51,886 nt of DNA from an uncultured Bacilli bacterium. GTDB taxonomy: Bacteria; Bacillota_I; Bacilli_A; RFN20; CAG-826. The position numbers were made by a program, and so were the translations under genes. The number at the start of each line of letters is the position of its first letter. Within the stretch, counting starts at the first letter, position 1. The notes under the pieces were generated by a model. The model was given only the letters and a program-made list of their open reading frames with translations, did no database searches and was not told where the DNA came from. Of the stretch, positions 3,373 through 34,972 are shown piece after piece. The stretch is taken from assembly GCA_944375905.1 (NCBI GenBank), contig CALWAS010000003.1:1-51886 (forward strand), given 5' to 3'.

Positions 3373-3381
3373 TTCGCCGGG

Positions 3382-3612: not shown

Positions 3613-3624
3613 TCTAGGAAACGG

Positions 3625-3649: not shown

Positions 3650-3698
3650 CTTCGTCATCGCAAAAACGCTGGCAAAAACCCTGCAAAATAAAGGAAAA

Positions 3699-3730
3699 GG
3701 ACTCCCGAGAAGGAGAAGACTCGGGAGTCC
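3699..3730 (-). terminator. Terminator of the rhamnose operon
   Basis: A perfect 11-bp stem GGACTCCCGAG / CTCGGGAGTCC has a 10-base loop. On the minus strand it is followed by TTTTCCTTT. It lies 10 nt past the rhaB stop codon and marks the end of the long minus-strand operon that begins near 20965. Confidence 0.85.
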
Positions 3731-3739
3731 TCTTTCAGA

Positions 3740-5862: not shown

Positions 5863-5872
5863 CGCTAGTTAC

Positions 5873-9643: not shown

Positions 9644-12448
9644 TTAGGCTTGCTTCTTTTTACGGAAGTAGATGATGAGGAAGACGACGAGGCCGATGAC
9701 GACAACCCCACCGACGCATCCGCCGACAATGCCGCCGATGGCCGCCGGAGTAAGGCCGGAGGTTGGGGTTTCGCCGGTGGTCGGAGTCGATTCGGAAGCA
9801 GAGCTGCCCTTGACCGTCACGGTGATGGTGACCGACTTGGTCGTCCCGTCGTCGAGGGTGATGGTAGCCGTGATCGTGCAGGTGCCCGGCGCCTTGGCGG
9901 AAATGATGCCGGCGCTAGTTACGGTTGCGATGCTCGGATCGCTCGATTCGTAGGTGATGGTTCCGGTCGTGGCACCTTCCGGAGTGCGCTCGACGCCGGC
10001 CGTGGCATTCTGCCCGACCGTCATCTCGATGCTATCCTTGGTGGCTTTGATGCCGTCGGACGGGAGATAGGAGACGAAGGCAGTGCCATCGAAGCGGAAC
10101 TGGGTCTTCGTCGTGGTGAAGCCGTCGACGACGATCTCGCCAGTCGCCTCGTTCATTCCGTCCGGATTCGAGGGATCGGCGGCTCCGATCTTCCCGCCGG
10201 TGAACTTCGGAATCGGCATTCCGGCATCGACGGTGATGATGTCGCCCTCTTGGTAATAGGGGGCCTTGTTGTAGTTCTCGGCCGTAAGGCTCGCGCCTTT
10301 GAGGAACTCGGGCTCGATCGCGGTGTTGTGTCCAAGCTGGTAGATGGTGGTTAGCTTGACCTCGGTGCCGTCGGCCCTGGTGTAGTGAATGTGCGGAGCC
10401 ATGTACTTAGCGGTCCAATCGGTTCCCTTGGTATTCGAGATATTGACCTTGTTGCTGGCCGTGTTCGGGGCATCGACGAAGACCCAATAGGTGAACCAGT
10501 CGACGACGTTCGCCTTCTCGTAGACTTGATCGTAAAGGTCATAGACCCCGATCGCGATTTCGGACGTGTAGGTCTTTTCCTCGTAGGTGACGGTGACCGT
10601 GGTCTTGGTTTCGCCAGCCTTGCTATGGTCGAATTCCTTGTTGAAGGAATAGGTGAATCCGCTCGCCGGATGGACGACCGGGAAGGTGATTCCGTCCTCG
10701 CTTCCGTCGTCATAGACGAATCGGAAGCCTTGGAGAGTCGGGGCCCAATCGGCAAGGTCCTGATCGACGTAGACCTGATGCATATAGCCGTTGACGGGGA
10801 CGATGCCCTTGATTTCCATCACTTCGGTGACGGTGAAATCATAGGTGTGCGTCACTTCCCCAAGTTTAGCGGTAACGGTTGCCTTGCCCGGCGCAACGCC
10901 GGTTACGTTGCCTTGGGCGTCGACGGTGAGGACATCCTTATCCGAGCTTTCGAAGACGGGGAGCCCGGCGCTCGTGTCGGGAGTGAAGGTAACGCTCGCG
11001 TGGTAGGTATCGCCCTGCATGATGACGGATCCGCCGTCCCAAGCGACGCTGAAGTCGGTGACGGCTACGCCGGCGACAAGGAAGGCCGAACCGTTATAGA
11101 TGAAGTTGAGGTCTTCGTTCAGGACGGCAGTCGCGATCCACTCGCCGTCCCCGTTCACTTCCTGGCTGTTGGAATCCACGGTTCCGGTATATTTCCAGTT
11201 GTAAAGGCCGGCCTTGAACGTGACGGTGTCGCCGAGCTTGAATCCGGCGAAATCGGAGCCGGTGCCAAGGAGGAAGTGATTGGAAAGGAGCTTGACGCTC
11301 GTGAATACCTCATCGCTCCCGTTGACTAGGACGTGGGATAGGGCATTGTCGAGGGCGCGGCCCCTGAAGTTCAGGTTTTGCTGGTTGTTGTCATCGATGA
11401 CAAGCTCAAACTTCATTCCCCAAGTCGTGGCAGTCCCGGTAACGCCGAAGACGTTGCTCGGATCCATGTTGAGGGCCTTGGCAACGGAATCGACCTTGAC
11501 GGTGAGGGTGGTCTCGAACTCGCCGATTTTGATGGTGAGCGGGTATTCGCCGACTTCTTCGATATCGTATTCGCCGGTTATTGACGTGGCCGGATCCCAA
11601 GGAATGATTCCTTCGGTGCCGTCGGCATAGGTGGCACTTACCTTGACGGTCGAGAAATCGACGGGGACACCAACGTATGTGGAGAGGATCCCGTCGCTCG
11701 GCGTCGTTACCTTGATGCCGGTCTGGTCGGAGGCAGCGGTTACATTGACTGTTATCTCATCCTTGAGAAGCCCAGAGTAAACTGTCACCTTCGTCTGCCC
11801 GACGCCAACGCCGGTAATATTTCCGGAATTGTCAGCAGTTGCAGTCGTATCGCTACCGGATTGATAGACAATAACCGGCGTATCATCTTCCGTCGTGATA
11901 TTGACGTAGGAAGAAATATTTAGGGTTTGCCCAATTTTTAAATCGAGAGCATCCTCGCTGAAGGAGAGGGAAGTAGGAGCGATGAAGGGTTCCCAGTCGC
12001 CCAAATCTCCATCGGCGAGCTTACAAATCCATTTCTGTTCCTCGAACGAGTACGTATCCCCGGTTACGGAAGAGGAGAGTTTGAAGTCGGAAGGTATCGA
12101 CAGGATATTGCCGTAACGATTGATGATATTGTATGAGGTGAAAAGAAGATCGTCGTACGGGAACCAGGACTTCATCTCTTCGGCCTTCCCGTATTCGTCG
12201 TACATAGTCGGCCAGGTTCCGGAAGGCGTCACTCCGGCGCCGCTGTACCATCGCCCTGCATTGATTGCCGGATCGATTTGAAGGCCAACGACACCATATT
12301 GATCATTCCATACCTTGCGATTCACGACCTTGATTTTCGCGTCAACGTCAGCCGCGTTTGCCTGTGCAGCCGGGCTGTAGGAGACACCAACGGTCCCTAG
12401 GCCAAGCAACAAGGCTGTTCCCAACAGGAACTGCTTCTTAGCTTTCAT
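9644..12448 (-). CDS. Secreted Ig-like repeat surface protein with C-terminal membrane anchor
   Basis: This 934-residue protein has a classical signal peptide (MKAKKQFLLGTALLLGLGTVG..., cleavage likely near AQANA). Several bacterial Ig-like (Big_2/Big_3) repeats follow, recognised by strands such as SGNITGVGVGQTKVTV, GNVTGVAPGKATVTA and AGIISAKAPGTCTITA. A Ser/Thr/Pro linker leads to a Gly-rich membrane helix (GGIVGGCVGGVVVIG...) and a short basic tail, FRKKKQA. No LPXTG motif is present. It lies inside the rhamnose operon between GH99-like lipoprotein and rhamnosidase genes and so is likely a glycan-binding or scaffold protein. It carries no recognisable catalytic motif. Confidence 0.8.
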   Translation of the reverse strand: MKAKKQFLLGTALLLGLGTVGVSYSPAAQANAADVDAKIKVVNRKVWNDQYGVVGLQIDPAINAGRWYSGAGVTPSGTWPTMYDEYGKAEEMKSWFPYDDLLFTSYNIINRYGNILSIPSDFKLSSSVTGDTYSFEEQKWICKLADGDLGDWEPFIAPTSLSFSEDALDLKIGQTLNISSYVNITTEDDTPVIVYQSGSDTTATADNSGNITGVGVGQTKVTVYSGLLKDEITVNVTAASDQTGIKVTTPSDGILSTYVGVPVDFSTVKVSATYADGTEGIIPWDPATSITGEYDIEEVGEYPLTIKIGEFETTLTVKVDSVAKALNMDPSNVFGVTGTATTWGMKFELVIDDNNQQNLNFRGRALDNALSHVLVNGSDEVFTSVKLLSNHFLLGTGSDFAGFKLGDTVTFKAGLYNWKYTGTVDSNSQEVNGDGEWIATAVLNEDLNFIYNGSAFLVAGVAVTDFSVAWDGGSVIMQGDTYHASVTFTPDTSAGLPVFESSDKDVLTVDAQGNVTGVAPGKATVTAKLGEVTHTYDFTVTEVMEIKGIVPVNGYMHQVYVDQDLADWAPTLQGFRFVYDDGSEDGITFPVVHPASGFTYSFNKEFDHSKAGETKTTVTVTYEEKTYTSEIAIGVYDLYDQVYEKANVVDWFTYWVFVDAPNTASNKVNISNTKGTDWTAKYMAPHIHYTRADGTEVKLTTIYQLGHNTAIEPEFLKGASLTAENYNKAPYYQEGDIITVDAGMPIPKFTGGKIGAADPSNPDGMNEATGEIVVDGFTTTKTQFRFDGTAFVSYLPSDGIKATKDSIEMTVGQNATAGVERTPEGATTGTITYESSDPSIATVTSAGIISAKAPGTCTITATITLDDGTTKSVTITVTVKGSSASESTPTTGETPTSGLTPAAIGGIVGGCVGGVVVIGLVVFLIIYFRKKKQA

Positions 12449-12527: not shown

Positions 12528-14444
12528 TTAGTAGCGGTAGCCAAGCCGCCCGAGCGGCATGGAATCCCCGCTTTGGTAATAACTCATCGGGTCGTCGGGG
12601 TCGCTTACGTTGTCATAGACCTTGAAGACGAAGCTCGCCCGAACGCCCGTCAGTCCCAAATCAGATAATGGGATGGCGATTTGCATGGCATTTCCCTGAA
12701 TCGCGTATTCGATCGACGAGGAAAGCGAGACCCATTCCCCGTTTTCGTAGCGCTCAAGCGAAGCCTTTCCTTCGGCTTTGCTAGCCCCGATCCGGTACTC
12801 GTAAGCGCCCATGAAGCCCTGGCCCGACGCTCCCTTCCCGAGAAGGATGACGAGGGCGTCGCCTTTCTCGCCGGAATCGATAGCCGCATTGCAATCGATC
12901 CGGAAATAGGCCTTGGAGGAATCGTTGGTTACCATCGCCGAGGCTATGTCGTTCCTTCCGGAGTCGTCGCTGTAGTGGGCCGGAACGGTGATTCCCACGA
13001 AATCGCGGTCCTCGCAATCTCCGGTCGGGTCTACATAACGATGGCTGATGCCACTCCAGGCATCGGCCGAAAAGTCGTTTACGTCGATGCTCTTGCGCTC
13101 GTGGGCGTACTCGACATATTGATTCATCTTGTAGGCCCGGGCATTCATCACGAACTGCATGTAATAGTTGTCGCCATAGCCGCCTTCCATCATCTCGAGG
13201 TCGCGGCTGTATTCGTGATTCCAGGTGTCGACGAAGTAAATTCCCTTGTCGCCGCCATAGCCGATGTTGGTTCCGTCCCACTGCTTGATGGCTTGCCACT
13301 CGTTCCAGCCGGTGACGAAGACATCGGTGACCCCGTTTTTAGGATCGAGGGCGGTATCGAACATCTTCTGGAAGGCTAGTCCTTCCTTCCAATCGCCCTC
13401 CTTTTTGTCGGTCTCGGGGTTATAGCCGCGGGCCGACTCGTCGCCTTCTAGCGAATAGCAGATGAGGTCGTGGTTATGCTGGGCAACCGGAACGGCGATA
13501 TGCCCGTTGTGGACTTTCTGCGGATAGCCATATGTCATTCCGGACTGGGACATGGCCCCGCCGGGGGCCCGGCTCCAGCTCATCCACGGCTGCCCGTTTT
13601 CGTTGTACATCCCGTTGGGCCACTGGCTTTCGAGGACATCGAAGTACTCGACCATGTCCTTGGACATGACCGGGTTCTTGCCTTCGTACATCGTTTGATC
13701 GCTGGCCTTTCCGTTGTTCTCGGTTATGCCGACGATCCTCGGCTTGCCGTTCGGTGCCCACCAGCAACTTGCCCATTTCTCCTGCGTGTAATAGGCGTTG
13801 AAGAGCATCTGCACGGTCTGGCCGGAAGACGTGTTGGTATAGAACATGACCTGCGGCACCTTGATGCCTTGGGCTTGGTAGAAGAGGATCGCGTCCAAAA
13901 TGGTCGGGACGACGTCCTCGTAGATGACGGCGTTGGTCGTGTCGAAGCAAAGGTAGTCGACCCCGCAGTTGGCGAATAGCTCAAGGTGCTTCCTGATGAC
14001 CCACGGATCGGCCGAATTGTAGTAGCCGTAAAGAGGCTTGCCCCAGGTATGGAAGCGCCCGTTCGGGGAGAGGGGGTCGTCCTCGCTGAAGAGGGCCTTG
14101 CGCCCTTCCTCGCTCGAAAGGAGGCTATCGATGTCCCGAGGTCCGGTATTGCCGCGGAAATCGTAGTCGTGCTGGCCGAGCCAGATGTGATAGAAGAGGC
14201 CGATATGGTGTTCTCCGTCCTTGAAGGAGCCCATCGGCAGAACCTTTCTCCCAAGCTCGTCGATTCCCTCGAGCTGGAGTTGGGAAAACTCGACGTCGCT
14301 TATCTTTCGCTCATCGATTGGAAGTCCGTCGTCATAGCTGACTCCGGGCCGGTTCGGACTAGACATGCTTGTTCCTCCAGGCTCGCAAGAGGCGAGGGCA
14401 AAGACCGATAGGCAGGCGAACAGGGCCTTAGTAGGCGTATTCAT
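12528..14444 (-). CDS. GH99/GH71-like lipoprotein, paralogue 2
   Basis: This is a secreted lipoprotein of 638 residues; the lipobox is FALASCE, with the Cys near residue 18. The start chosen is the ATG at 14444, which gives a clean lipoprotein signal and overlaps the previous gene by 17 nt. The middle is a barrel of the GH71/GH99 type: LFYHIWLGQHDYDF, the segment DPWVIRKHLELFANCGVDYLCFDTTN, and VTGWNEWQAIK, whose Glu is in the place of catalytic Glu residues in GH99-like proteins. The last about 200 residues form a predicted beta-sandwich like CBM9/DOMON domains. It is clearly a paralogue of the next gene upstream. It is likely an endo-acting glycanase on the outer surface; its substrate is unknown, although the operon points to a rhamnose-containing glycan. 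Confidence 0.7.
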   Translation of the reverse strand: MNTPTKALFACLSVFALASCEPGGTSMSSPNRPGVSYDDGLPIDERKISDVEFSQLQLEGIDELGRKVLPMGSFKDGEHHIGLFYHIWLGQHDYDFRGNTGPRDIDSLLSSEEGRKALFSEDDPLSPNGRFHTWGKPLYGYYNSADPWVIRKHLELFANCGVDYLCFDTTNAVIYEDVVPTILDAILFYQAQGIKVPQVMFYTNTSSGQTVQMLFNAYYTQEKWASCWWAPNGKPRIVGITENNGKASDQTMYEGKNPVMSKDMVEYFDVLESQWPNGMYNENGQPWMSWSRAPGGAMSQSGMTYGYPQKVHNGHIAVPVAQHNHDLICYSLEGDESARGYNPETDKKEGDWKEGLAFQKMFDTALDPKNGVTDVFVTGWNEWQAIKQWDGTNIGYGGDKGIYFVDTWNHEYSRDLEMMEGGYGDNYYMQFVMNARAYKMNQYVEYAHERKSIDVNDFSADAWSGISHRYVDPTGDCEDRDFVGITVPAHYSDDSGRNDIASAMVTNDSSKAYFRIDCNAAIDSGEKGDALVILLGKGASGQGFMGAYEYRIGASKAEGKASLERYENGEWVSLSSSIEYAIQGNAMQIAIPLSDLGLTGVRASFVFKVYDNVSDPDDPMSYYQSGDSMPLGRLGYRY

Positions 14445-16287
14445 AGGCAAGCCTCCCGATCGGGGCGGAATCCCCGCTAACGTAGAAGTCGTCGATGTCC
14501 AGGGGATCGAGGAGATGGTCGGTGGCCTTGAGAAGAAGGTGCGGAACCATGTTCCCGAGCCCGATGGCCGAGCGGGGAATCCGGTATTCGACGACGTTGT
14601 CTTGAGAAACGTAGGCGACGCGTTCTCCGGTCTTGACCCAGGAGCCGACTCCCTCGCTTTCCTCATAACGCGCCACCGCCATGCTTCCATCCGTTCCGTC
14701 CGGGAAGACGCGGTAGTCGAAATTCGAGGCAAACGGGGTTCTTCCCTCGACGTCCGGGGTTCCGATGAACAGGTTCATCCAGCTTTCGTCGCCAGCGCTC
14801 GGGATGACTTCCTCGGCCGTTTCGACCCGGACGTAGACGTTGTCGTTGTCATGGGTGACCTTGGTCGAGACGATGTCGTTCCGGGCCGTGAGGTCTTCGT
14901 ACATTTCATAGCCGTAGGAAGAAGGCGTCGCCGCGGCGTTTTTGTAGTTGCGGAACATGGCGTCTCCCTCGAAGTCGAGGTAGGAATGCCTGACTTCCGA
15001 CCATTTGGGGTCGTCCTTGCCGATTTCGATGCCCTTCGGTTCGAGGAAGTAATGCTCGCCCTCCTCGTAGGCGAATTTGCGAAGGTTGCGGGCGATTTGC
15101 AGGTAAAATCCGTCGCCATAGCCGGTTTCGCTGTCGGTCATCTCGGCATCGCGGCTATAGATCAAGTCAAAACCGTCGACCATCTGCATGTCGCCGTTGT
15201 TGGCCCGGTTCTTGATGGCCATCCATTCGTTCCACTGGGTGATGAAGACATTGTCCACTTCCCCACCCGACAGGCTCGGGTCGAAGGCCGTCATCCACTC
15301 TTCCTCGAAATTGAGGCCCTTGGCATATTCGTCGACGTTCTGGGCACCGGTCTTGTAGCCCTCGGTAACCCTGGTATACCCGCGTCCGAAATTGCTTTCC
15401 TCTTGGTTGGCTGCGTTATAGCCGGGCATCTGGGCGATGGAAACCGAGATGGTTCCGTCGTGGTTGAACTGGGGCCACTGCCAGTTCATCCACGGGAAGT
15501 TTTCCTTCCTCATCCGCTCATCGGGCCACTGGCTTCCCTTCAAGGTAAAGAATTCCTCGTAGAAGGCCAGCTTGTCGTAATCGGTGAAATCGTCTTTTCG
15601 GGTAACGAGCATCGGCTTGCCGTCAACCTTGTACCATATGTCGTCGTAAAGCCCGTCCTTGTACCAAATCGAATAGAGGGAATCAACCGTCGTCTGGCTG
15701 TGGGAATTGGTGTAGAAAGCCAGCTTCGGCACGTCGAAGCCTTGGGCCGCAAACTTGCGGAAGACCTCGATCAGGGCCTTGACGACGTCGGTATAGATGA
15801 CGCTGTTGGTCGTATCGAAGACCAAATAGTCGATCCCGGCCATGGTGAAGAGCTCGCAGTGGCGGGCCAATACCCACGGATCCCGGCTGTCGTAATAGCC
15901 ATAGAGGGGCCGTCCGAAGTAGTGAAACTGCCCGAGCGGGCTATCGACCGGCTGCCCATTGCCGCTATTCACGTCGAAGAGAGCCTCGGGATTTATTTCC
16001 TTGAGGATCGTCACGTCGTAAATGCCGCTTTCGTGGGAACCGTGCCATAGGGAGTAGAACATCCCGACTTCCTTTTCCGGATCGGCTTCCGAAACCGACG
16101 AAAAGGAGCGCCCGAAGGCATCGGTGGAGGCGAGGCTGTTGACAGTCCATTCCTGATCGCTCAGCACCCGTTCGTCCTCGACCCTCTCGAAGGGGTCGGG
16201 AATCTCGCTCGGGCCGCAGGAAGCAAGAAGGCAAAGGGAAAGGAGGAAGGCTCCCGGAAGAACGATTCTCTTGCGTTTGCTTGCCAT
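14428..16287 (-). CDS. GH99/GH71-like lipoprotein, paralogue 1
   Basis: This 619-residue lipoprotein has a lipobox LLASCGPSE. The start is set at the ATG at 16287, with AAGGGG in front, because it gives the proper signal peptide and lies just past the permease stop. It shares with its downstream neighbour FYSLWHG, the long segment on VLARHCELFTMAGIDYLVFDTTNSVIYTDVV, the ITQWNEWMAIK motif and the C-terminal beta-sandwich ending SGDSAPIGRLAYEYAY. The two are diverged tandem duplicates. Their position after the importer genes and before the intracellular rhamnosidase suggests that they make the oligosaccharides that are imported. No tested enzyme is known to the annotator for this exact group. 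Confidence 0.7.
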   Translation of the reverse strand: MASKRKRIVLPGAFLLSLCLLASCGPSEIPDPFERVEDERVLSDQEWTVNSLASTDAFGRSFSSVSEADPEKEVGMFYSLWHGSHESGIYDVTILKEINPEALFDVNSGNGQPVDSPLGQFHYFGRPLYGYYDSRDPWVLARHCELFTMAGIDYLVFDTTNSVIYTDVVKALIEVFRKFAAQGFDVPKLAFYTNSHSQTTVDSLYSIWYKDGLYDDIWYKVDGKPMLVTRKDDFTDYDKLAFYEEFFTLKGSQWPDERMRKENFPWMNWQWPQFNHDGTISVSIAQMPGYNAANQEESNFGRGYTRVTEGYKTGAQNVDEYAKGLNFEEEWMTAFDPSLSGGEVDNVFITQWNEWMAIKNRANNGDMQMVDGFDLIYSRDAEMTDSETGYGDGFYLQIARNLRKFAYEEGEHYFLEPKGIEIGKDDPKWSEVRHSYLDFEGDAMFRNYKNAAATPSSYGYEMYEDLTARNDIVSTKVTHDNDNVYVRVETAEEVIPSAGDESWMNLFIGTPDVEGRTPFASNFDYRVFPDGTDGSMAVARYEESEGVGSWVKTGERVAYVSQDNVVEYRIPRSAIGLGNMVPHLLLKATDHLLDPLDIDDFYVSGDSAPIGRLAYEYAY

Positions 16288-16291
16288 GTTT

Positions 16292-17215
16292 TTACCCCTT
16301 GATGCCGCTAGTGAGGGCACCGTCTGTAAGCTGTTCTTGGAAGATGAGGAAGAGGAGGGCCGGGAAGAAGGTCATGAAGACGCCCCCCGCCATCCTGACG
16401 GCTGCCCATCTCGTCGAGGCGAGGCCTTCGACGGTGCTTTTGAAAATGGCATACGCGAAGGTAATCGGCGCATCGGATGAGGGCATGTAGAGGAGCGGCC
16501 CGTAGTAATCTCCCCAATAGGAGTTGAAGACCGAGATGACGATGTAGATGATGATCGACTTGCAGTTAGGAAGGATGATCGACCAATAGATGCGGAACGG
16601 GCCGCAACCGTCGATCTTGGCGGCATCGCAGATTTCGTTTGGTATTCCGAACATGTACTGGCGAATGAGGAAGATGTACATGGCCCCGCCGCCGAAGAGA
16701 TTCGGTATGGTGAAGGGCAGGAGGGTGTTGAGCCAGCCGATCTTGGAATAGATGACGTAAAGCGGGATTTGCGTAACGACGCCCGGAAGGGTAACCGTCA
16801 GCATCATGGCCGCGAATACGATGTTCTTCCCTTTCCATTTGAGCTTCGCGAAGCCGTAGGCGATGAAAGTCGCCGAAAGGGGGATCGCGATGACGTTGAA
16901 GACGATGATGATCATCGTATGGAGGAGAGCCTGCGCATAGTTGTAGCCGGAGCTCGCGTCGGTGAAGAGGGTGACGAAGTTGCTCCACTGGAGGTTTCCC
17001 CAATCCGGGAAGAAATGGGGGTTTGGATCAAGGATCTCGCTCTCGGACATGAGCGACTTGAACACCATGAAGATGTAGGGGAACATGAGGACCACCGCCA
17101 CGACGCACATCCCAAGGAAGAGAGCGGTCGTCTTGGAGAAATCCCACATCTTGGCCTTGCGGTCCTCCACAAAGGCTTCGCCGGTAAGACGGTTCTTTAG
17201 GTCTTTCCAGGTCAC
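16292..17215 (-). CDS. Sugar ABC transporter permease, MalG type
   Basis: This inner permease subunit of a carbohydrate importer has about 307 residues and six predicted membrane helices. The cytoplasmic EAA loop reads EICDAAKIDGCGPFRIYWSIILP, the contact site for the ATPase. The GTG at 17215 is chosen as start because GGAGG (within GGAGGTGA) lies 9 nt upstream; a TTG at 17221, overlapping the previous stop, would leave only 3 nt. It pairs with the MalF-type gene upstream. No ATPase gene is in this operon, so it probably uses the MsmK-like ATPase at 49640. Confidence 0.9.
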   Translation of the reverse strand: MTWKDLKNRLTGEAFVEDRKAKMWDFSKTTALFLGMCVVAVVLMFPYIFMVFKSLMSESEILDPNPHFFPDWGNLQWSNFVTLFTDASSGYNYAQALLHTMIIIVFNVIAIPLSATFIAYGFAKLKWKGKNIVFAAMMLTVTLPGVVTQIPLYVIYSKIGWLNTLLPFTIPNLFGGGAMYIFLIRQYMFGIPNEICDAAKIDGCGPFRIYWSIILPNCKSIIIYIVISVFNSYWGDYYGPLLYMPSSDAPITFAYAIFKSTVEGLASTRWAAVRMAGGVFMTFFPALLFLIFQEQLTDGALTSGIKG

Positions 17216-17217
17216 GT

Positions 17218-18219
17218 TCAATCACCTCCATAGAAGACCCACTTGGAGGTCGAGAAAAGAAGGAGTGTAAGAAGCGAGATAACGATGCACAGCATCCAGG
17301 AGAGGGCGCTTGCGTAGCCGATGTCGCCGATGCGCATGGCTTCCCAGTAGATCTTGACGCCGAAGAGGAAGAGCGAATCGTCGATTCCGCGCCCTTCCCG
17401 CGGAGCGAAGATGAGGGTTCCGTTGTACTGGAGCGAACCGATGATGCTCGTTACGAGGTTGAAGAAGATGATCGGCGTCGACATCGGGATCGTGATATGG
17501 GCAAAGCGCTGGAAGGCATTGGCCCCGTCGACCTTTGCCGATTCATATAGGTCCTTGGGAATGTTCTTGAAGGCGCTCAGCCACAGAATCATGCCGCCGC
17601 CGACTCCCCATAGGCCCATGAAGATGAGAGAAGGCATGGCCGTCCGCGGATCCATGAAGAAGGTTGCCTTAGGCAGTCCGATCGATTCGAGTATCTTGTT
17701 GAAGATGCCGTAGGTATTGTCGAAAAGGTCTTTCCAAAGAAGCCCGCTTACGACCGCCGGAATGACGACCGGGAGGTAGAAGAGCACCCGGAATACCCTG
17801 GTGAATTTGTGGGCGTTGTTTACCAAAAGGGCGAGGAAGTAGCTGAGAACGAGGTTGAGGGGAACGTTGACGATGGCGTAGATGAGAGTGTTCAGGGCAC
17901 TGATCCCGACTTCGTCGTCTTGGAAGGCCTGGACGTAATTCCAAAGGCCGGCAGGCGAGATGTTGAACCCGTCGTAATGGAAGAAGCTCCAGTAAAGCGA
18001 GCAGAACATCGGGACGGCCGTAAAGAGGGCAAGGCCGATGATGAGGGGCGAGGCAAACACCCACCCGGCAACGGCTTCCTTTCTTTGCATCCGGCTCATC
18101 TTCGGACGCTTGAACTTCGGGGCATCCCCATCCTTTTTGGCAGGCAGGAAGCCCTTCACGCGGTCCTTGAGGCTGGACCAAAAGGGAGCCCTTTCCTTTC
18201 TGGCTTCGACGGTTGGCAT
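17218..18219 (-). CDS. Sugar ABC transporter permease, MalF type
   Basis: The protein has 333 residues with a basic N-terminal extension of about 50 residues before the first of six membrane helices. The EAA loop is ESAKVDGANAFQRFAHITIP. It forms the membrane channel with the next gene and works with the binding lipoprotein encoded just upstream (51 nt gap). The ATG is preceded by AGGAAAATCT. The substrate is inferred to be a rhamnose-containing oligosaccharide, from its place in an operon that ends with rhamnosidase and rhamnose catabolic genes. Confidence 0.9.
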   Translation of the reverse strand: MPTVEARKERAPFWSSLKDRVKGFLPAKKDGDAPKFKRPKMSRMQRKEAVAGWVFASPLIIGLALFTAVPMFCSLYWSFFHYDGFNISPAGLWNYVQAFQDDEVGISALNTLIYAIVNVPLNLVLSYFLALLVNNAHKFTRVFRVLFYLPVVIPAVVSGLLWKDLFDNTYGIFNKILESIGLPKATFFMDPRTAMPSLIFMGLWGVGGGMILWLSAFKNIPKDLYESAKVDGANAFQRFAHITIPMSTPIIFFNLVTSIIGSLQYNGTLIFAPREGRGIDDSLFLFGVKIYWEAMRIGDIGYASALSWMLCIVISLLTLLLFSTSKWVFYGGD

Positions 18220-18269: not shown

Positions 18270-19649
18270 TCAGTTGCCGACGGCGTCATTGAGGTCGCTC
18301 ACGCCGCGGGAGATGATCTCATCGATGCTACGACGGTTCTCGCGGGTCGAGAGAGTGTCGCCGATGACATCGGAAATGGCAAGAGTGACGTTGGCCATGG
18401 CGGAGGGAGAGCAATAGGCATAGTACTCGTCGGCCACTTTGTTCTCGTCGTAGAGGACATAGGCCTCTAGATTCCGGTCTGTATAGCCTTTCGTCCAGTT
18501 GGCTTCGGCATTGTCGGGGTCGGCTAGGTCGTTGCGGATGGACGGGAGGTTCAGCCCGCCGAGAGCCATGGCTTGCTGGCCGTCATAGCTCATGAGGAAG
18601 TTGAGGTATTCCCAGGCAAGGGCCTTCTTGTTCGAGGCCGTGCAAAGTGTGTATCCGGCAACGCCGGCGCCGATTTTCGCGTTTTCCTGGCCGTTGATGA
18701 ACGGGAAGGTGACGATGTCGATGTTTCCTTTTAGCTCACGCATCTCGTCATAGTGGGAAATGGCAGCCGATTGGAAGATGAAGGGGCAAGTGCCGCTTTC
18801 GAAGCTGGAGCCGGAAGTGACGCCATTGCCGACGCAATAACGCTCATCGACGAGTTCGCGCATTCCATTTAGGGCCTGCCGCATTTCGGGAGTATCGATC
18901 GAAACGGTATTCTCCGCCGAGAAAATGTCGGCCCCGTAGCTGCGGATGAACGGATAGTAGACGGATGACCAAGAGAAGTTGAAGTCGCAGCAGAACCAAT
19001 CGGCCGAGTGCCCCAGCTTGTCGGCATAGGCTCTCCATTGGGCGCAAAGGGCAATGAAATCCTCCCAGCTCCAGCCGTTCTTGATGCTGTCCATCGAAAT
19101 CCCGGCTTCTTGGAGAAGCTTCTTGTTGTAGAAGCAAACGACCGTGTCGGCGCTTCGGGGGACTGCATAGTAGGTGCCGTTGTCTCCGGCCATATCGAAG
19201 AATTCGGTCTTGAAGTCTTCCTCGAAGTTGTAATCGCCGCGGGCTTCGGTCTTTTCTATGTACTGGTTAAGGGGCTCGATGACATTCAGCGAACGGAGGA
19301 AGTAGACTTCCTGGGAATTGGTCCACAGGATATCCGGCATGTCCCCCGCCATGTTGTATTGGCGGATCGTCGATTCATAAGTGGGAATCGAAACGAAGTT
19401 GATTTCGAACTTCACGTTCGGGTAAAGGAGGTTGAAAGCCTCGTTTGCCTTCTCGATCATGGTCTGCTCGTTGCTATTGCCGGAAGGAATGAGGAGAGTA
19501 AGAGTTTCATTGGTAGTCGGATCGACGCCGATCTCGACCGATTCCTGCGAATGGGAAGTGCTCGAGCTGCTCTCGGGGGCGATGACGCATCCGGTGAGGG
19601 CAAAGGCGGCCAGTAGGGCTCCGGCGAAGGCTTTCTTGCTTGTTTTCAT
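18270..19649 (-). CDS. Sugar-binding lipoprotein of ABC importer
   Basis: This is an extracellular solute-binding protein, family 1, of 459 residues. It has a signal peptide and lipobox (FALTGCV), followed by a Ser-rich linker. The body shows typical features: TLLIPSGNSNEQTMIEKANEAFNLLYPNVKFEI at the N-terminus and WSWEDFIALC in the hinge region. The start is the ATG at 19649; the strong site AAGGAGG lies between the upstream stop codon and this ATG, and the alternative start eight codons earlier would lie before that site. It catches oligosaccharides at the cell surface and passes them to the two permeases downstream. Confidence 0.92.
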   Translation of the reverse strand: MKTSKKAFAGALLAAFALTGCVIAPESSSSTSHSQESVEIGVDPTTNETLTLLIPSGNSNEQTMIEKANEAFNLLYPNVKFEINFVSIPTYESTIRQYNMAGDMPDILWTNSQEVYFLRSLNVIEPLNQYIEKTEARGDYNFEEDFKTEFFDMAGDNGTYYAVPRSADTVVCFYNKKLLQEAGISMDSIKNGWSWEDFIALCAQWRAYADKLGHSADWFCCDFNFSWSSVYYPFIRSYGADIFSAENTVSIDTPEMRQALNGMRELVDERYCVGNGVTSGSSFESGTCPFIFQSAAISHYDEMRELKGNIDIVTFPFINGQENAKIGAGVAGYTLCTASNKKALAWEYLNFLMSYDGQQAMALGGLNLPSIRNDLADPDNAEANWTKGYTDRNLEAYVLYDENKVADEYYAYCSPSAMANVTLAISDVIGDTLSTRENRRSIDEIISRGVSDLNDAVGN

Positions 19650-19669
19650 TGTTGGTTTAACCTCCTTAA

Positions 19670-20965
19670 TCAAGCATTTTCAATGGTGGCGAGGAGGGCT
19701 CCGGCGTAAACGCGGTGCCCATAGTCATTGGGGTGATTGATGCCGTTTCCGGTCATGTCGTAATAGTCGCGACCGCCTCCGAGGAGATAATTCCCATAGG
19801 CGTAGGTATCGAGGACCACGACCCCGCTGAAGCTTTCGGCCACGTCATTCATTTTCTTGATGTAGCTCTCGAGCTTTATCTGGTCGTAGACCCGCGGGTT
19901 GGGGCTGAGGGGCGACATGAGGATGATTTCAAGGTTGGGGAGGTTTTCTTTGAGATAGGTCACGATGTACATGATGTTGTCCATGAAACCATTAGGGGTC
20001 GCTTGCCCGCCGAGGTCGTTGATTCCATAGTGGACAAGGAGAAGGTCGGGGGCATACGTCACGACTTTGTCGAGAAGGGATTTCTGGGTTCCATCGGAGG
20101 AAGTGGTTCCGCCGACCCCCATGTTGTCGCTCGTCACGTCGAGTCCGAACTTGTTCTCCACCGCTTCGGCAAAAAGGTCGAAGAAAGGCTTTTGGTAGGG
20201 CTCGTGGTTGAAATTGACCGAGGAAGAGCATCCTTCCATGACGCTATCTCCGATGCCGGCTATCTTGAGCGATCCCGACTTCGCATCGAGTTTCGCCTTG
20301 AGGGCTGGCAGACTCGAGATCTGGCTGGCGGGAAGGGAGGTCATGTCCAAATCGTTGATGTCATAGACATAGGTCACGTACACCTGCGTCCCGTAATAAA
20401 ACGGCGATTCCGTATAAATGGTCGCGCCCATCCTCATGCAATCGGTCGTTTGGTTGGAAATGGTACCCTTCACGACATATGGAGCCGGAAGGTCTTCCTC
20501 GCCCCACATCTGCCGATTGGTCCAATGGCCGATCCGACTGCCGCTCGGCGCCGTGATGGCATTGCCGTCGATCATGTAATCCGTGCCTTCGGCATATTCG
20601 GTCTTCAGCGTGTAATCGCGAACCGAGATGATCTTGCGAGGGGCAAAGCGAAGATGTCCGAGGCCGGTCCCGTCTTCCTGGGTCCTAAGCATGACAGTTT
20701 CGTTGTAGATGACGTTTCCGTAGAAAAATGGATCGCTCATGGCTGGATCGTTCACCTTGTAATCGTAAGTCAGCGAATCGATATCCTCGACATAGTTGGG
20801 AAAATCGCTCGGATCAAGCGTTTGGCCTTCCGACGAGGACGATTCGCTCGGCTGAGAACTCGATTCATTGGGAACTGGAGTGCAAGCGGCGAGGGCGATT
20901 CCGGCGAAGGCTAGGACTAGTCCTAGGCGGGGTGCCTTATCCGCTTTGCTGTGACCAAATGACAT
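19670..20965 (-). CDS. SGNH/GDSL-type esterase lipoprotein
   Basis: This secreted lipoprotein has 431 residues (lipobox ALAACTP, Cys 28). The N-terminal about 200 residues form a beta-rich domain, as in two-domain carbohydrate acetylesterases. The SGNH core follows: block I GIGDSVMEG with nucleophile Ser 241, block II Gly at GVGG (about 284), block III GIND with Asn 316, and block V GINHPNDYGH with His 411. It probably removes acetyl or other acyl groups from the target glycan so that glycosidases can act. It is the first gene of the eleven-gene operon; GGAGG lies just before the ATG. It could act on acetylated rhamnogalacturonan or on a bacterial wall glycan. Confidence 0.85.
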   Translation of the reverse strand: MSFGHSKADKAPRLGLVLAFAGIALAACTPVPNESSSQPSESSSSEGQTLDPSDFPNYVEDIDSLTYDYKVNDPAMSDPFFYGNVIYNETVMLRTQEDGTGLGHLRFAPRKIISVRDYTLKTEYAEGTDYMIDGNAITAPSGSRIGHWTNRQMWGEEDLPAPYVVKGTISNQTTDCMRMGATIYTESPFYYGTQVYVTYVYDINDLDMTSLPASQISSLPALKAKLDAKSGSLKIAGIGDSVMEGCSSSVNFNHEPYQKPFFDLFAEAVENKFGLDVTSDNMGVGGTTSSDGTQKSLLDKVVTYAPDLLLVHYGINDLGGQATPNGFMDNIMYIVTYLKENLPNLEIILMSPLSPNPRVYDQIKLESYIKKMNDVAESFSGVVVLDTYAYGNYLLGGGRDYYDMTGNGINHPNDYGHRVYAGALLATIENA

Positions 20966-20976
20966 ATGCTTCCTCC

Positions 20977-20990
20977 GTAAAGCGCTTTCA
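20977..20990 (-). promoter_or_regulatory. cre-like / LacI-family operator before the rhamnose operon
   Basis: GTAAAGCGCTTTCA contains the perfect palindrome AAAGCGCTTT and matches the Bacillus cre consensus TGWAARCGYTWNCW at 12 of 14 positions. It sits directly upstream of the GGAGG site of the first operon gene, 12 nt before its ATG. Similar palindromes precede three other operons in the window (38249, 47804, 51186), so CcpA or a dedicated LacI-type regulator may bind here. Confidence 0.65.
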
Positions 20991-21032
20991 TTCTTTGGCT
21001 CTAAGTTCATTTCTGCAAGGTTTTGATTGGGA

Positions 21033-21096: not shown

Positions 21097-21861
21097 ATGC
21101 TAATCGATGAACGAAAGCAAGAAATTCTTAGCATCACCGGCGAAAGGACCTACATTTCGGTCGAAGAACTCGCAAAGCTCGTCTTTGCCTCGCCGGCAAC
21201 CATCAGAAGGGACCTTGCCGACCTTGCCAATGCGGGATTGATCAAGCGGGTAAGAGGAGGGGCCTCCGTTCTCGCGCCCAACACGGGCGAGGTTTCATCC
21301 CTCATCAGGCGCAAGACCAATGTCATAGAGAAGAAGCGGATGGCGCAGGCGGCCATCAACTATTTCCGGGAGGGCGAGAGCTACTTCTTCGACTCCTCCA
21401 CAACCGTTGGCCAAATAATCCCCCTTTTAAAACATTTCACCGATATAACCGTCATTACAAATGGCTTCGATAACGCCATGACTTTATCGAATTTCGTAAG
21501 TTTTTCCTCATATATGGCCCCAGGGATAATATCGAGCAACGTGGGCTCCAGCGTCGGTCCGGATACCGTTGAATTCGTTTCCCGCTTCTACGTCGATGCC
21601 TTCTTCTTTTCGTGCCGCGGCTTCTCGCTCGACGCCGGGCCGAACGAAGGCACAATCGAACAGCAAAGGGTAAAGGCGGCCATGGCCTCGCGAGCAAGGA
21701 AGCTCATTTGCCTCGTCGACCACACGAAATTTGATCGCACCCTTCTATCAAGCGACTGCGGCCTCGAGGACATCGACGTCCTGATAACCGACAGGGAACC
21801 GCCCGAGGAGTATCGGGAAGCGTTCCAGCGTGCGAATATCGATGTTGTCGTTGCTGGATAA
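21097..21861 (+). CDS. DeoR-family transcriptional regulator
   Basis: The 254-residue protein has the family length. The N-terminal helix-turn-helix (about residues 20-57) reads ISVEELAKLVFASPATIRRDL followed by the wing GLIKRVRGGA. The C-terminal DeoR sensor domain shows YFFDSSTTVGQ, ITVITNGFDNA and CLVDHTKFDR, where a phosphorylated sugar normally binds. It diverges from the rhamnose operon and lies just before the GDPD lipoprotein gene, so it most likely controls both. The effector could be rhamnulose 1-phosphate or another sugar phosphate (inference). No RhaR/RhaS of the AraC type is present nearby. Confidence 0.93.
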   Translation: MLIDERKQEILSITGERTYISVEELAKLVFASPATIRRDLADLANAGLIKRVRGGASVLAPNTGEVSSLIRRKTNVIEKKRMAQAAINYFREGESYFFDSSTTVGQIIPLLKHFTDITVITNGFDNAMTLSNFVSFSSYMAPGIISSNVGSSVGPDTVEFVSRFYVDAFFFSCRGFSLDAGPNEGTIEQQRVKAAMASRARKLICLVDHTKFDRTLLSSDCGLEDIDVLITDREPPEEYREAFQRANIDVVVAG

Positions 21862-21908: not shown

Positions 21909-22010
21909 AGATATCGAAATTGAATTGAAAGCCCTTACTTGCCTTTCCTTGACGATGGACTTGCAAAAAAACGATTGAAATTGCCTAATTTCCATAGGAG
22001 GTCTTTTTCG

Positions 22011-23906
22011 ATGAGAAAAAAGATTCGCGCTTTGCCCCTTATCTTGAGCGTTTGCGGGCTTCTTGCCTCTTGCGAGCCGACGACCCATTCTTCCCTTTCT
22101 TCTTCTTCCTCGTCTTACCAGGAAAGCCTTTCCGACGAAATTACGGGAATAACCGTCAACGATTTTGTCGACACCCGTCCCGTTCAACCTTCCCTCATAG
22201 GCGAAGCCGTGAGGATATACGAACCGCGGAACGCCGAGGAACTTGCCTCTACGATGAAACTGGAGAGCGTTCCTACCATCGTCGTGTTGACGGTGGATGA
22301 CAGCCTGAAAGTCGTCTATGGCGACGGCAGCAAGGGGGATGATTTCTTCACCACTTACCTGACAATCCTATATAAAGCCAAAAGCGTACCGGCAATAAGG
22401 ATCGAAAGCCAGACCGCCCTCGACTTGTATCTGCGCGGGATAAGGGACAATGTCGCGATTTCCGATTGCTATATCGTCTCGTCGAAGGCCGACGTCCTCA
22501 AGAAAGCGGAAGCCGACACCTACGGAAAGAAGCACTACTTCGCCTTTGACGCTAGTTCGGCATCCCTCGAGAGCGACGAAGACCGCTTCCTCATCGAAGC
22601 CGTCTCTACCGCAGTCGCGGCCGATACCGTCATTCTCGGCGAGGAAAACGCAAATCTCGAGGAAGCCATCGAATGGTTCAACGCCCGCTTTAAGTCGACA
22701 TGGGTCAAGACCGACGGAAACGAGGCGCGGGCCCTGTGCTCGGGAGCTTACGGCGTAATGACGCCCAACGCCGAAAAGCTGAATTCACTCTATGCCAAGC
22801 TGAACCGGCCAGGACGGACAAGAAAGCAATTCCTCTCCGCCCACCGGGGTTTGACGACCGAAGGAAAATACAATCAAAACTCGATTCCGGCCATTCTCGG
22901 AGCCGACGCCGTCGGGGCCACCCATGTCGAAATCGACCTCCAAATCACCCACGATAACGTAATAGTCGTCTGCCATGACGATTCGCCTGCCTATTTCAGC
23001 GATGATTGCCCTTCGACTTCCGATCGGTTCATCGATTACGACTGGGACGAGATGAAGGACTACCGCTTGACAGACAACAACGTCGCGGAAGGAAACAAAA
23101 TCCCGACGCTTGAGGAAGCGCTGCTTGCCGCCAAGGGAACCGACCTCGTCTTCATGCTGGAACTCAAAATGGATTGGTGCAGCGACAAGGCCCTTGCCAA
23201 GGACCCGCTTCAGTATGTAGAGGAAATCGTCCGCAAAACCGGCATGGAAAAGCAAGTAGTCGCGATTACCTACTATTCTCCATATGCGCTTGGAGCCCGG
23301 GAGCACTCCCCTTGGATGCCGATAAACACCATCGGCAACGGCATGAAATACAATCTCGACTATGTCGGATCGGAGGATCCGCAAGGGCTTAGCCAATACC
23401 TGAGGAAATACCAATGGGGATGCGATTATTCCCTCACCGGCACGCTCATCGCCAATAGCTACAAGCTTGCCGCCCGCGGCTTTCCGATCAACAGCTACAC
23501 CTACGAGGACCAAAGCCACTTCGCGAACCCGACCAACATCGCCACGACCGACGTCGCCGAGAACAGCGAAAGCGTCGTTGCCGAGCTGAATCCCGAAAGC
23601 TACATCTATTTGGAATCGGCAAACGACATCGCCTCCCTCGCCGCGGTCGAAGCCACGACCTACGGAGGAACCGAGAAGGATGTCGCGGCGAGTTTCGTCC
23701 TCCTCGATGGCGACCCTTCCAAAGACAAGTACGTCACCGGCTCTTTCTACTACCGCGACGAAACGCTTTCCCACGGGCTCTACAGCCCGGCCGTGACTAT
23801 CGGCCTTTCCTCCCTCGGAGCCGAAGAGAATCATGAACCCGCCTATGAAGAAAAAGCTCCCCTTGAGATCCCCGAGGACCTAAGGGAAGCCGTTTACGGG
23901 GCTTGA
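22011..23906 (+). CDS. Lipoprotein glycerophosphodiester phosphodiesterase (GDPD), two-part
   Basis: This 631-residue secreted lipoprotein (lipobox LLASCEP, Cys 21; Ser-rich linker) starts at the ATG at 22011, preceded by AGGAGG. The second half is a GDPD barrel with all key residues: His 278 and Arg 279 in SAHRG, Glu 307 and Asp 309 in VEIDLQ, His 322 in CHDDS, and Glu 384 and Lys 386 in LELK. Residues 45-265 look like a second, degenerate barrel of the same type without these residues. It should cleave phosphodiesters with a glycerol-phosphate part outside the cell. Its site next to rhamnose genes and a GDPD-rhamnosidase fusion suggests a glycerophosphate-bearing polysaccharide rather than a lipid. 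Confidence 0.85.
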   Translation: MRKKIRALPLILSVCGLLASCEPTTHSSLSSSSSSYQESLSDEITGITVNDFVDTRPVQPSLIGEAVRIYEPRNAEELASTMKLESVPTIVVLTVDDSLKVVYGDGSKGDDFFTTYLTILYKAKSVPAIRIESQTALDLYLRGIRDNVAISDCYIVSSKADVLKKAEADTYGKKHYFAFDASSASLESDEDRFLIEAVSTAVAADTVILGEENANLEEAIEWFNARFKSTWVKTDGNEARALCSGAYGVMTPNAEKLNSLYAKLNRPGRTRKQFLSAHRGLTTEGKYNQNSIPAILGADAVGATHVEIDLQITHDNVIVVCHDDSPAYFSDDCPSTSDRFIDYDWDEMKDYRLTDNNVAEGNKIPTLEEALLAAKGTDLVFMLELKMDWCSDKALAKDPLQYVEEIVRKTGMEKQVVAITYYSPYALGAREHSPWMPINTIGNGMKYNLDYVGSEDPQGLSQYLRKYQWGCDYSLTGTLIANSYKLAARGFPINSYTYEDQSHFANPTNIATTDVAENSESVVAELNPESYIYLESANDIASLAAVEATTYGGTEKDVAASFVLLDGDPSKDKYVTGSFYYRDETLSHGLYSPAVTIGLSSLGAEENHEPAYEEKAPLEIPEDLREAVYGA

Positions 23907-23923: not shown

Positions 23924-26902
23924 TCAATCTTCGACTAGGGCGTAGCCGTCCGGCAAGAAGAGGGCTTCGCCCTTTTCCTTTCGCTCGAAGACAATCGAAC
24001 GCGTGCCGCCTTCGATCGGGATCTCGAAGCGGCACGGGATCCCGGCCGTTTTTCCCTTTCGTCGATGGACGATCCTGCGCGCTTCGTCGACGAGGTAAAT
24101 GCCGGTTAGGCACTCGAGGACGATATTCGCGGCAAAGGAAGCGAATCCGTGGGTCAAAGAGGCGTAATACGAATCGTATTCCCATAGAGTTCCGGTCCGA
24201 AGGGCCATCTTGCCGAAATAGAGGCGAGCCTCTCTCAGGACCCGCGCGAATTCGCCCTCCTCGAGAAGGGACGAAAGCCGGAGGTAATAGCCGATGAACA
24301 TGTTGGCCGGGAATACTTCTTCCTCGGCAATCGAGGGGTCGCGGTTCGGCCCAAGCAGGCCGAAGACCCGTTCGAAAAGGGAAGGATCCTTCTCTTTCGA
24401 GGAAAAGCCGAAGTGGAAGGCATAGTATTGCGTTACCTCGCTAACGCGTCCCGTCAGCCGGAGAGCGCCCTTTTCGTCTCGCTTGGCATTGTCGTTCCAC
24501 CACTTTCCGTCATAGCCGAGGGAGGAAACGGCCTTCCTTAGTTCCGACGCCCTTTCTTTGAGATGGCCCAAGCGTTCTGGGTAAAGCTCGACGAGAGCTT
24601 CTAGCATCGCGCAGTAGAGCATGTTGGTCGGGAAATTGACCCCACGGGTGCTTTCAAGGTCGTTCGCGTGGCTCCATTCGACGAAAACGACGCCGTCGAG
24701 ATCCTCAAGGAAGCCCTCGGGGTCCTTGAACGACTCGCACCACTCAAGAAAGGGAACGATCTTGCGATAGGCGCCATCGAGATCGACGGTCCTTTCGTTC
24801 CTTTTCTTGGCCTCGAGGAGTTCAAGCACATAGAACATCGGCCAATTTGGAATGTAGCCTTGATCGCCGTAATCGCTCGGATGGCACATCGGGATCATCT
24901 TCTCCGGCTGGTCGCCCTGATTGACATAGTGGGCATAGTCGTCGAGAAACGCCCTTTCGACTGCGTTTTCGCCGGTGAAGAGATATTCGGCGCGGCCCGT
25001 GAAGTAGGTATCGCACAGCCAACCGGCCCTTTCTCTCGAGGGGCAATCCATCAAGACATCGACCGCGCATTGTCTAAACGACTCGCGGGCAGACGTCACG
25101 ATGGAGGCAAGCAATGCATCCTCGATTTCGAACCCAAAGCGACCGGAATCCGGATTTTCAAGGGCAATGAGAGAGAACGAGTCGTCCGAGATGTCGACCC
25201 ATCCATCCTCGCAGAGGACGCGGAAATACTTGCCGCTCACCGGAAGGAAACCGACAAGATCGTAGGTTCCGGGAGTCAACTCATAATGGATGACATTGTG
25301 GGTACCGTTTCGCTTGAAGTCGATGCCGATCGGCCCGGGCGAGTCCGACGTGTCGGCTTCGTCGAAGGCAATGTCGATGCGGCTGCTCGCATAAACCTTG
25401 AGCTTCAGTTTGGGGAATCCGGTCTTGCTTCCATCGAGCGCGAAGGTCGCGAAATCGCCTTTCGCCAACCAATGCTTCCTTTCCCCGAGCTCGTAGACGC
25501 ACTGGGAAAGATAGTCGCTGGGAGCGACCTCCCACTCCTCCTTGGGATACATCCCGAGGAAAGGAGCGTGCATCGAACGGTCGTCGTAGAGGGGCAATGT
25601 TGGGTCGAGGCGGAATTTTCCGCCCTCGCAAAGGCGGCCGCGGCTTTCTTGATACGACGGATAATGGGTTCTTCTCTCGAAGAGGTCCTTTTTCCCAAAG
25701 GGAGAAAGGCGGCTTGGAACAAGAGGGATCTTTTTCTTTGGCGAGCGAAGGGCGGAATAGGCATCGTACGAAATCCGATAAGACTCGGAAAAAGCCCGTT
25801 GGTAAGAGAAACGGGCAACTTTCTCAATGCGGAACGGCGAAGCGAAAACGCGGGAAGAAACGCCGCTTTTAGCGATGATTTTTCCATTCCGGTCATAAAT
25901 TCGGTAGAAGACGAATGGGCGCTCGTTTACCCTTTCGTAGCCTTTCGCGTTGCTTCCGGTCAAAAAGACCGAGAGACGCTTGGGCCCGTGCGGAAGCAAG
26001 GCCTCGTCGACATAGAACCGGGACTTCGCCCCCCGTTCCGGCCCGTAAAGAAGGAACTCTCCGTCGAGGAAGCATTGATATTCGCTCGCCCCGGCGATCT
26101 CCAAGAAGGCCGCATCGTCCGGAAGGTCCTCCACTAGAAGGAGCGAGCCGTTCATCGTCTCGCTTTTTTCCCTCAGGTAGAATCCTTCTTCCTTCCTCGA
26201 GCAAGAAGGATAGGGACGGAAATTCTCAAACGTGACGGCATCGCTTCCCTTGAGGGCGATTTCGAGCTGCTCTTCGTTCCTGATGGTCCAGGAAAGGACT
26301 TTCCCGCCCTTTTCCCGATAGGAACGGATCTTCTCATCCTGGAGGAGCGGATAAGCCACGTCCAGGAAATCGCAATTTCCGATGTCGCTTTCGCTAAGAG
26401 AGGCGAGTTCGTCGCCTCCTATGAGAAGCCCGATCGGCTCCTTTCCCTTGCCATAGGCGAAAAGCGCTTCCTTGTTGAAGGAAATGACGGCCGCGGGTCC
26501 TATGTAACGCGAGATGGCATCCCGGACTTTGGAAGCGAGCTCACGCCCGTTCCCCCCGTAGGCCTTCAGCTCGATGACAATCGGGACTCGGCCATCGACC
26601 ATTGCGAGCAGTTCCTCGAGCCGGAGAAGGGGCGAGCCGTCGGGGAGGGAATATCCCTCTATTTCGGCATCCCCCATCTTTTCGATGAGCCCGGGAACCC
26701 CGGCCTGATAGACGAGGTCATGGTCGTGGTTAAGAAAAAGGGATCCGTCCTTTGAGAGATGGACGTCGGTCTCGAAGGGATATCCCCACTCGACAGCCAG
26801 CCGAAAAGACAATGGCGAATTTTGGTAGGTCAGCGGGCCGTGAAGCCCCCGATGGGCAACCCCGTGCTTCGCGAAAACGGAAAATAAGGATGAAACTTCC
26901 AT
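23924..26902 (-). CDS. GDPD domain fused to a GH78-like alpha-L-rhamnosidase
   Basis: This 992-residue cytoplasmic protein has no signal peptide. Residues 1 to about 245 form a complete GDPD domain: His 17 and Arg 18 in VAHRG, Glu 44 and Asp 46 in FETDVHLS, His 59 in NHDHDL, and Glu 111 and Lys 113 in IELK. A beta-sandwich region (about 250-600) leads to an (alpha/alpha)6 barrel with the GH78-type motif DCPSRERAGWLCD (Glu 624) and a likely base in GTLWEYD (Glu 908). One polypeptide could thus remove glycerophosphate and rhamnose from the same imported fragment. It converges with the GDPD lipoprotein gene (17 nt apart). The ATG has GGAGG 7 nt upstream; a TATACT lies at 26922-26927 (minus strand). 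Confidence 0.85.
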   Translation of the reverse strand: MEVSSLFSVFAKHGVAHRGLHGPLTYQNSPLSFRLAVEWGYPFETDVHLSKDGSLFLNHDHDLVYQAGVPGLIEKMGDAEIEGYSLPDGSPLLRLEELLAMVDGRVPIVIELKAYGGNGRELASKVRDAISRYIGPAAVISFNKEALFAYGKGKEPIGLLIGGDELASLSESDIGNCDFLDVAYPLLQDEKIRSYREKGGKVLSWTIRNEEQLEIALKGSDAVTFENFRPYPSCSRKEEGFYLREKSETMNGSLLLVEDLPDDAAFLEIAGASEYQCFLDGEFLLYGPERGAKSRFYVDEALLPHGPKRLSVFLTGSNAKGYERVNERPFVFYRIYDRNGKIIAKSGVSSRVFASPFRIEKVARFSYQRAFSESYRISYDAYSALRSPKKKIPLVPSRLSPFGKKDLFERRTHYPSYQESRGRLCEGGKFRLDPTLPLYDDRSMHAPFLGMYPKEEWEVAPSDYLSQCVYELGERKHWLAKGDFATFALDGSKTGFPKLKLKVYASSRIDIAFDEADTSDSPGPIGIDFKRNGTHNVIHYELTPGTYDLVGFLPVSGKYFRVLCEDGWVDISDDSFSLIALENPDSGRFGFEIEDALLASIVTSARESFRQCAVDVLMDCPSRERAGWLCDTYFTGRAEYLFTGENAVERAFLDDYAHYVNQGDQPEKMIPMCHPSDYGDQGYIPNWPMFYVLELLEAKKRNERTVDLDGAYRKIVPFLEWCESFKDPEGFLEDLDGVVFVEWSHANDLESTRGVNFPTNMLYCAMLEALVELYPERLGHLKERASELRKAVSSLGYDGKWWNDNAKRDEKGALRLTGRVSEVTQYYAFHFGFSSKEKDPSLFERVFGLLGPNRDPSIAEEEVFPANMFIGYYLRLSSLLEEGEFARVLREARLYFGKMALRTGTLWEYDSYYASLTHGFASFAANIVLECLTGIYLVDEARRIVHRRKGKTAGIPCRFEIPIEGGTRSIVFERKEKGEALFLPDGYALVED

Positions 26903-34970: not shown

Positions 34971-34972
34971 GA

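Follow-up and report, generated by a model that had tools for sequence, protein, structure and literature searches.

The window, which is the whole stretch of 51,886 nucleotides analysed here, harbours on its minus strand a gene (23924..26902) encoding a predicted cytoplasmic protein of 992 aa, in which a glycerophosphodiesterase (GDPD) domain is fused to a GH78-like glycosidase part. The gene was delimited by the ORF call, Pfam, alignment and its orthologues in the loci L032, L033 and L034. The pairing is real and was new to us, and both activities are predicted from the sequence. We consider it about an even chance (probability roughly 0.5) that the protein serves a rhamnose-glycan utilisation locus as a bifunctional cytoplasmic enzyme, acting on phosphodiester-bearing rhamnose polymer fragments.

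The open reading frame starts with ATG, is stop-free, and is preceded by GGAGG a few bases upstream of the start codon. No signal peptide is evident in the protein, in agreement with the cytoplasmic location proposed in the initial annotation of this DNA. Full-length orthologues were present in L032 (= G141) and L034 (= G169), both with 73% identity, and in L033 (= G170), with 66% identity. These are separately named MAGs of uncultured Bacilli/Firmicutes from the same genus as the window genome, and the presence of the whole fusion in all three rules out an assembly or frameshift artefact or a chimera. The GDPD and GH78-like parts are joined almost without a linker, and unfused homologues begin to align at about residues 236-248 of the fusion.

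The fusion was found in four of the 224 genomes of the family, all belonging to one genus, and a sample of 395 genomes of the class contained no further fusion. Comparing the window with L032 or L034, dN was 0.23 and dS 1.4-1.6 for the GDPD part, and dN was 0.20-0.21 and dS 1.2-1.3 for the GH part, with dN/dS of about 0.15-0.17 in both halves; the comparisons with L033 were nearer saturation. As judged from these rates, both halves of the fusion are under purifying selection, equally strong in each. In the tree of the glycosidase part, which like the other trees was rooted at midpoint only, the four fusions are monophyletic (100/100), and a larger clade (100/99) unites them with the unfused proteins of G096, G162 and G163. 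The latter are glycosidases of 773-776 aa in which the GDPD domain is absent, and in G096 and G162 the unfused gene occupies the same slot, among the same neighbours, as the fusion gene. Unfused GH78-like homologues also occur in five further genera of this family, which makes a gain the best interpretation of the fused state. In L037 and L041, which belong to other genera, the unfused GH78-like gene is accompanied by GH127-like, fucose-isomerase-like, FGGY kinase and aldolase-like genes. Genome G034 also possesses a second, broken GH78-like copy (L037 15015-17077, minus strand), lying in several fragments at a distance of about 5 kb from the unfused gene, which is intact.

The GDPD domain comprises residues 1-230 (26213..26902, minus strand). 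Pfam PF03009 matches residues 17-217 with an E value of 9.7e-12 and 45.9 bits, against a curated cut-off of 23.6, and the catalytic motifs HR, ExD, H and ExK are present as H17 R18, E44 D46, H59, and E111 K113. The six catalytic residues, H17, E44, D46, H59, E111 and K113, are invariant in nine aligned GDPDs, which are the four fused GDPDs, the four GDPDs of the adjoining lipoproteins and one from a Hyphomicrobiales MAG. Modelled with this alignment, residues 1-245 form a GDPD barrel with pLDDT 89.8 and pTM 0.89. The closest solved structures of the model in VIA all have the GDPD fold, with Z of 24-27, compared with about 12 for unrelated barrels. Among the Foldseek and VIA matches are glycerol-3-phosphate complexes, including 3QVQ and GlpQ of B. 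subtilis (5T9B). The complete GDPD domain with its six named residues, as claimed in the initial annotation, is thus borne out by Pfam, alignment and model alike, and the first 245 residues do correspond to a GDPD barrel. The search of viral contigs revealed no relative of the fused GDPD domain.

The GH78-like part comprises residues 238-992 (23924..26191, minus strand) and was assigned by Pfam PF17389, a profile match to 2OKX and its invariant residues. Bac_rhamnosid6H (PF17389) matches residues 591-749 with an E value of 4.2e-12 and 46.4 bits (cut-off 24.5), and all ten homologues match this profile at E <= 0.01, with about half of the profile covered. The part is arranged as a beta-rich N-terminal region, a helical six-hairpin catalytic region at about 591-935 and a beta-rich tail, with boundaries that are partly inferred. 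Only the six-hairpin profile matches this half, while Bac_rhamnosid_N and Bac_rhamnosid were not recognised by Pfam. Since one alone of the three rhamnosidase Pfam domains was recognised, the half was classed as GH78-like and not as canonical GH78.

The motifs DCPSRER (residues 619-625) and WEYD (residues 907-910), on which the initial annotation relied, are both present, and D619, E624, W628, D631 and E908 are invariant in the ten aligned homologues. Beyond the motifs, the profile of the ten homologues matched RhaB of Bacillus sp. GL1 (2OKX) as the best solved structure, with a partial match at E 2.9e-16. In this match, D619/E624/W628/D631 align on D567/E572/W576/D579 of RhaB, which we take to be its catalytic acid and support residues. 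Many GH78 enzymes carry the motif DCPxRDER, one residue longer than DCPSRER, and the length of the latter agrees with RhaB. In the WEYD motif, E908 lies outside the stretch aligned with 2OKX and is a natural candidate for the general base. The full-length AlphaFold model had a pLDDT of 45.8, which is too poor for claims on the fold, including on E908.

The initial annotation took the GH78-like domain for a rhamnosidase, which the analysis did not establish. The domain is remote from characterised GH78, its best solved match being the partial one to RhaB, and a canonical GH78 is already present in the locus. The GH127-like, fucose-isomerase-like, FGGY-kinase and aldolase-type genes adjoining unfused homologues in other genera hint at a different sugar. 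The domain could accordingly hydrolyse another sugar of the same glycan, with the canonical GH78 performing the rhamnose step. However, RhaB has matching acid and support residues, and the locus holds the full rhamnose pathway, so that we regard this alternative as plausible while leaning against it. It is compatible with the bifunctional enzyme that we favour, and its likelihood is counted apart from those of the alternatives for the GDPD domain. The remoteness from characterised GH78 does count against the favoured reading.

The genes conserved in the cluster of all four fusion genomes encode, besides the fusion and a GDPD lipoprotein, a DeoR-family regulator (21097..21861, plus strand; Pfam DeoRC and HTH_DeoR), and, all on the minus strand, a GDSL esterase-type lipoprotein (19670..21010; Pfam Lipase_GDSL_2), an ABC sugar-binding lipoprotein (18270..19673; Pfam SBP_bac_1), two ABC sugar permeases assigned by sequence inspection only (16292..18219, with genes at 17218-18219 and 16292-17221), and two related lipoproteins of unrecognised family (12528..16320, with genes at 14428-16320 and 12528-14732). 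No Pfam or NCBIfam match was detected for the two orphan lipoproteins of about 620-640 aa, and no PDB match for the one tested. The pair is kept in every version of the cluster, and motifs such as WNEW presumably indicate a GH71/GH99-like endo-glycosidase. A surface protein with bacterial Ig-like domains (9644..12448, minus strand; Pfam Big_2) is conserved in the cluster as well.

The locus also possesses a canonical GH78 alpha-L-rhamnosidase, predicted to be cytoplasmic (7129..9612, minus strand), with three Pfam rhamnosidase domains, and the genes for rhamnose catabolism (3740..7132, minus strand), which in relatives, too, lie on the contig of the cluster. These encode the rhamnose isomerase RhaA (5873-7132; PF06134, E 7.4e-138), the rhamnulose-1-phosphate aldolase RhaD (5050-5862) and the rhamnulokinase, also named RhaB (3740-5053). 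In G096 and in each of the other three fusion genomes, the cluster contig also carries a RhaA orthologue, with 70-92% identity. The initial annotation's link to a rhamnose glycan is supported by the clustering of the fusion gene with the isomerase, kinase, aldolase and canonical GH78. Elsewhere in the window (30692-35399, minus strand), two adjacent GH65-type genes, one of them tested with Pfam, are located beside their own ABC transporter genes; in L032, L033 and L034 the fusion does not have them as neighbours. The GH65 family includes a glucosyl-rhamnose phosphorylase. A membrane-type protein of 591 aa without Pfam match is encoded at 1597-3372 (minus strand), and L044 and L065 have homologues of it close to the same locus.

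A secreted GDPD lipoprotein is encoded at 21939..23906 (plus strand), with ATG 22011 as likely start. It was assigned by Pfam PF03009, synteny, tree and lipoprotein signal, and belongs to another GDPD subfamily than the fusion. Its gene adjoins the fusion gene in four out of four fusion genomes. In G096 and G162, where the locus is complete, the cluster is otherwise the same, but the glycosidase is without GDPD domain, the GDPD lipoprotein gene is absent, and the genes for DeoR and the glycosidase are immediate neighbours. The lipoprotein was not found anywhere in the G096 genome, and for G162 its absence was seen at the locus only. G163 was left out of this comparison because its locus is split between contigs. 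Rhamnose use accompanies the locus with or without the GDPD parts, which are thus an addition to it.

The fused GDPD domain is encoded at the 5′ end of its gene, and the lipoprotein gene is located at the other, 3′ end. The opposite ends and the different subfamilies argue for separate recruitments of the two GDPDs in one lineage, so one lineage appears to have gained a GDPD outside and a GDPD inside the cell on a rhamnose-glycan locus. The fusions go back to one common event, so their co-occurrence with the lipoprotein counts as one evolutionary contrast and not as four independent ones. At the contig end of G163, a small ORF without Pfam match stands beside a truncated DeoR gene and looks like a contig-end artefact. 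In G162, a motif repeated across translated ORFs points to a CRISPR-like array, next to a Cas2-like ORF (L075, about 1800-4040).

In the proposed mechanism, the lipoproteins outside the cell, namely the GDPD, the GDSL esterase and the two of unrecognised family, would trim and cut a phosphodiester-bearing rhamnose polymer, and the ABC importer would carry the fragments into the cell. Inside, the GDPD domain of the fusion would hydrolyse a leftover glycerophosphate-type phosphodiester, yielding glycerol 3-phosphate or another phosphomonoester. The GH78-like domain would remove the terminal sugar, and rhamnose would enter the pathway of RhaA, rhamnulokinase and RhaD. The analysis shows the two domains with their catalytic residues, the conservation and the locus of the fusion, and its co-occurrence with the secreted GDPD; that both domains are catalytic, what they act on and in which order the steps run we infer. 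The internal GDPD would seem redundant if the secreted one removed the groups outside, unless the linkage differs. In its most specific form, the proposal is that one polypeptide frees an imported rhamnan fragment of both a phosphodiester decoration and a sugar. It would belong to a dedicated two-compartment GDPD system, by which a commensal feeds on decorated rhamnans from the cell walls of neighbouring Gram-positive bacteria. This form is put forward tentatively, and we consider it rather doubtful.

Known rhamnose polymers provide candidates for the substrate. The group A carbohydrate and the polymer of S. mutans carry glycerol phosphate on O-6 of GlcNAc or of alpha-glucose side chains (PMC11754754). 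The group B antigen and the enterococcal antigen EPA are rhamnose polymers with phosphodiester bonds (reviewed in PMC8327497; PMC7188991), and in EPA teichoic acids are bound to the substituted rhamnan via such bonds (PMC7188991). The initial annotation had proposed rhamnose bearing glycerol phosphate, which does not agree with the documented site on GlcNAc or glucose side chains (PMC11754754). The group would therefore be located on a neighbouring sugar, or the polymer would be one that is not yet described. The more general idea of a phosphodiester-decorated substrate is strengthened, as the secreted GDPD lipoprotein accompanies the fusion and is absent from the locus of congeners without it. 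It is weakened by the conserved cluster, which shows no obvious glucosidase, N-acetylglucosaminidase or other hexosidase that would act on the glycerol-phosphate-bearing side chains of known rhamnans.

Other roles of the GDPD domain were considered. The domain might cleave a sugar-phosphate-sugar or sugar-phosphate-alditol bridge, the substrate then being a phosphodiester-linked oligosaccharide such as a fragment of the group-B-antigen/EPA type. GDPD-type enzymes act on agrocinopines, which contain sugar-phosphate bridges. GDPDs have a common catalysis with a varied leaving group, rhamnose polymers joined by phosphodiesters are described (PMC8327497, PMC7188991), and such a substrate would account for the retention of both an inside and an outside GDPD. 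Nonetheless, the closest solved relatives are annotated as glycerophosphodiester enzymes, and the sequence features examined do not separate glycerol from sugar specificity. We regard a bridge of this type as unlikely to be the substrate.

Alternatively, the domain could act on glycerophosphodiesters from lipid turnover and have been captured by gene fusion, with two activities that are unrelated in pathway and have a promoter in common. The fused GDPD nests in the tree among standalone cytosolic GDPDs of the same family, and its sister GDPDs have no obvious glycan neighbours; by inspection, their neighbours look housekeeping. In addition, no match to the NAD glycerol-3-phosphate dehydrogenase GpsA (PF01210) was found in the window genome (G000) or in many congeners, and scavenged glycerol phosphate might be useful to such a cell. 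However, every fusion genome also keeps a separate standalone GDPD, the fusion is located in a glycan locus where it co-occurs with a second GDPD, and a glycerol kinase was present in six of the six genomes tested. A role in lipid turnover therefore seems improbable to us. The presence of glycerol kinase despite the lack of a GpsA match led us to reject the idea that a demand for glycerol phosphate alone explains the fusion. A non-catalytic GDPD domain, which would bind phosphate groups of the substrate or serve as a structural module, would suit the rigid packing suggested by the near-absent linker and the attachment of a GDPD-fold domain to the beta-1,3(4)-glucanase 7WW4, but is very unlikely given the six invariant catalytic residues and a purifying selection as strong as in the glycosidase half.

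On the surface of streptococci and enterococci, glycerol phosphate, teichoic acid and similar phosphodiester decorations are important features of the rhamnose polysaccharides, and our literature search found no description of how other bacteria dismantle rhamnose polymers decorated in this way. A locus that has acquired one GDPD for the outside and another for the inside of the cell, the latter joined to the glycosidase, points to this class of substrate. The fusion could also supply an enzyme for stripping phosphodiester decorations from purified polysaccharides in the laboratory.

Similar to the solved GDPDs of PF03009 (3QVQ, 2OTD and 5T9B), the fused GDPD has the barrel fold, the six catalytic residues, and the same length and order of motifs. 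It differs from them in sequence, with about 20-27% identity, in its attachment to a glycosidase and in its placement in a glycan locus. The GH78-like half agrees residue for residue with RhaB (2OKX) in the D-x4-E-x3-W-x2-D spacing, and part of the N-terminal region aligns too. In contrast, RhaB is without GDPD domain, the similarity between the two is low, and E908 is supported by conservation alone. Full-text searches gave no paper pairing a GDPD with a rhamnosidase in a relevant way and no described enzyme of this kind. The absence of precedent stated in the initial annotation thus stands for GDPD with rhamnosidase in the literature, but not for GDPD with glycosidase in general. In the multidomain beta-1,3(4)-glucanase 7WW4/7WWC, for which a literature search for 7WW4 yielded no paper, an N-terminal part of approximately 230 of the 480 residues adopts the GDPD fold, with GDPD sequence similarity at E 1.3e-16. 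The likeness to our protein lies in this fold and sequence similarity, whereas the glycosidase is different, being a beta-glucanase solved as a laminaritriose complex. Given 7WW4, a fusion of GDPD and glycosidase is not wholly unprecedented; both domains belong to known families, and it is the pairing of a GDPD with a GH78-like part that is new to us.
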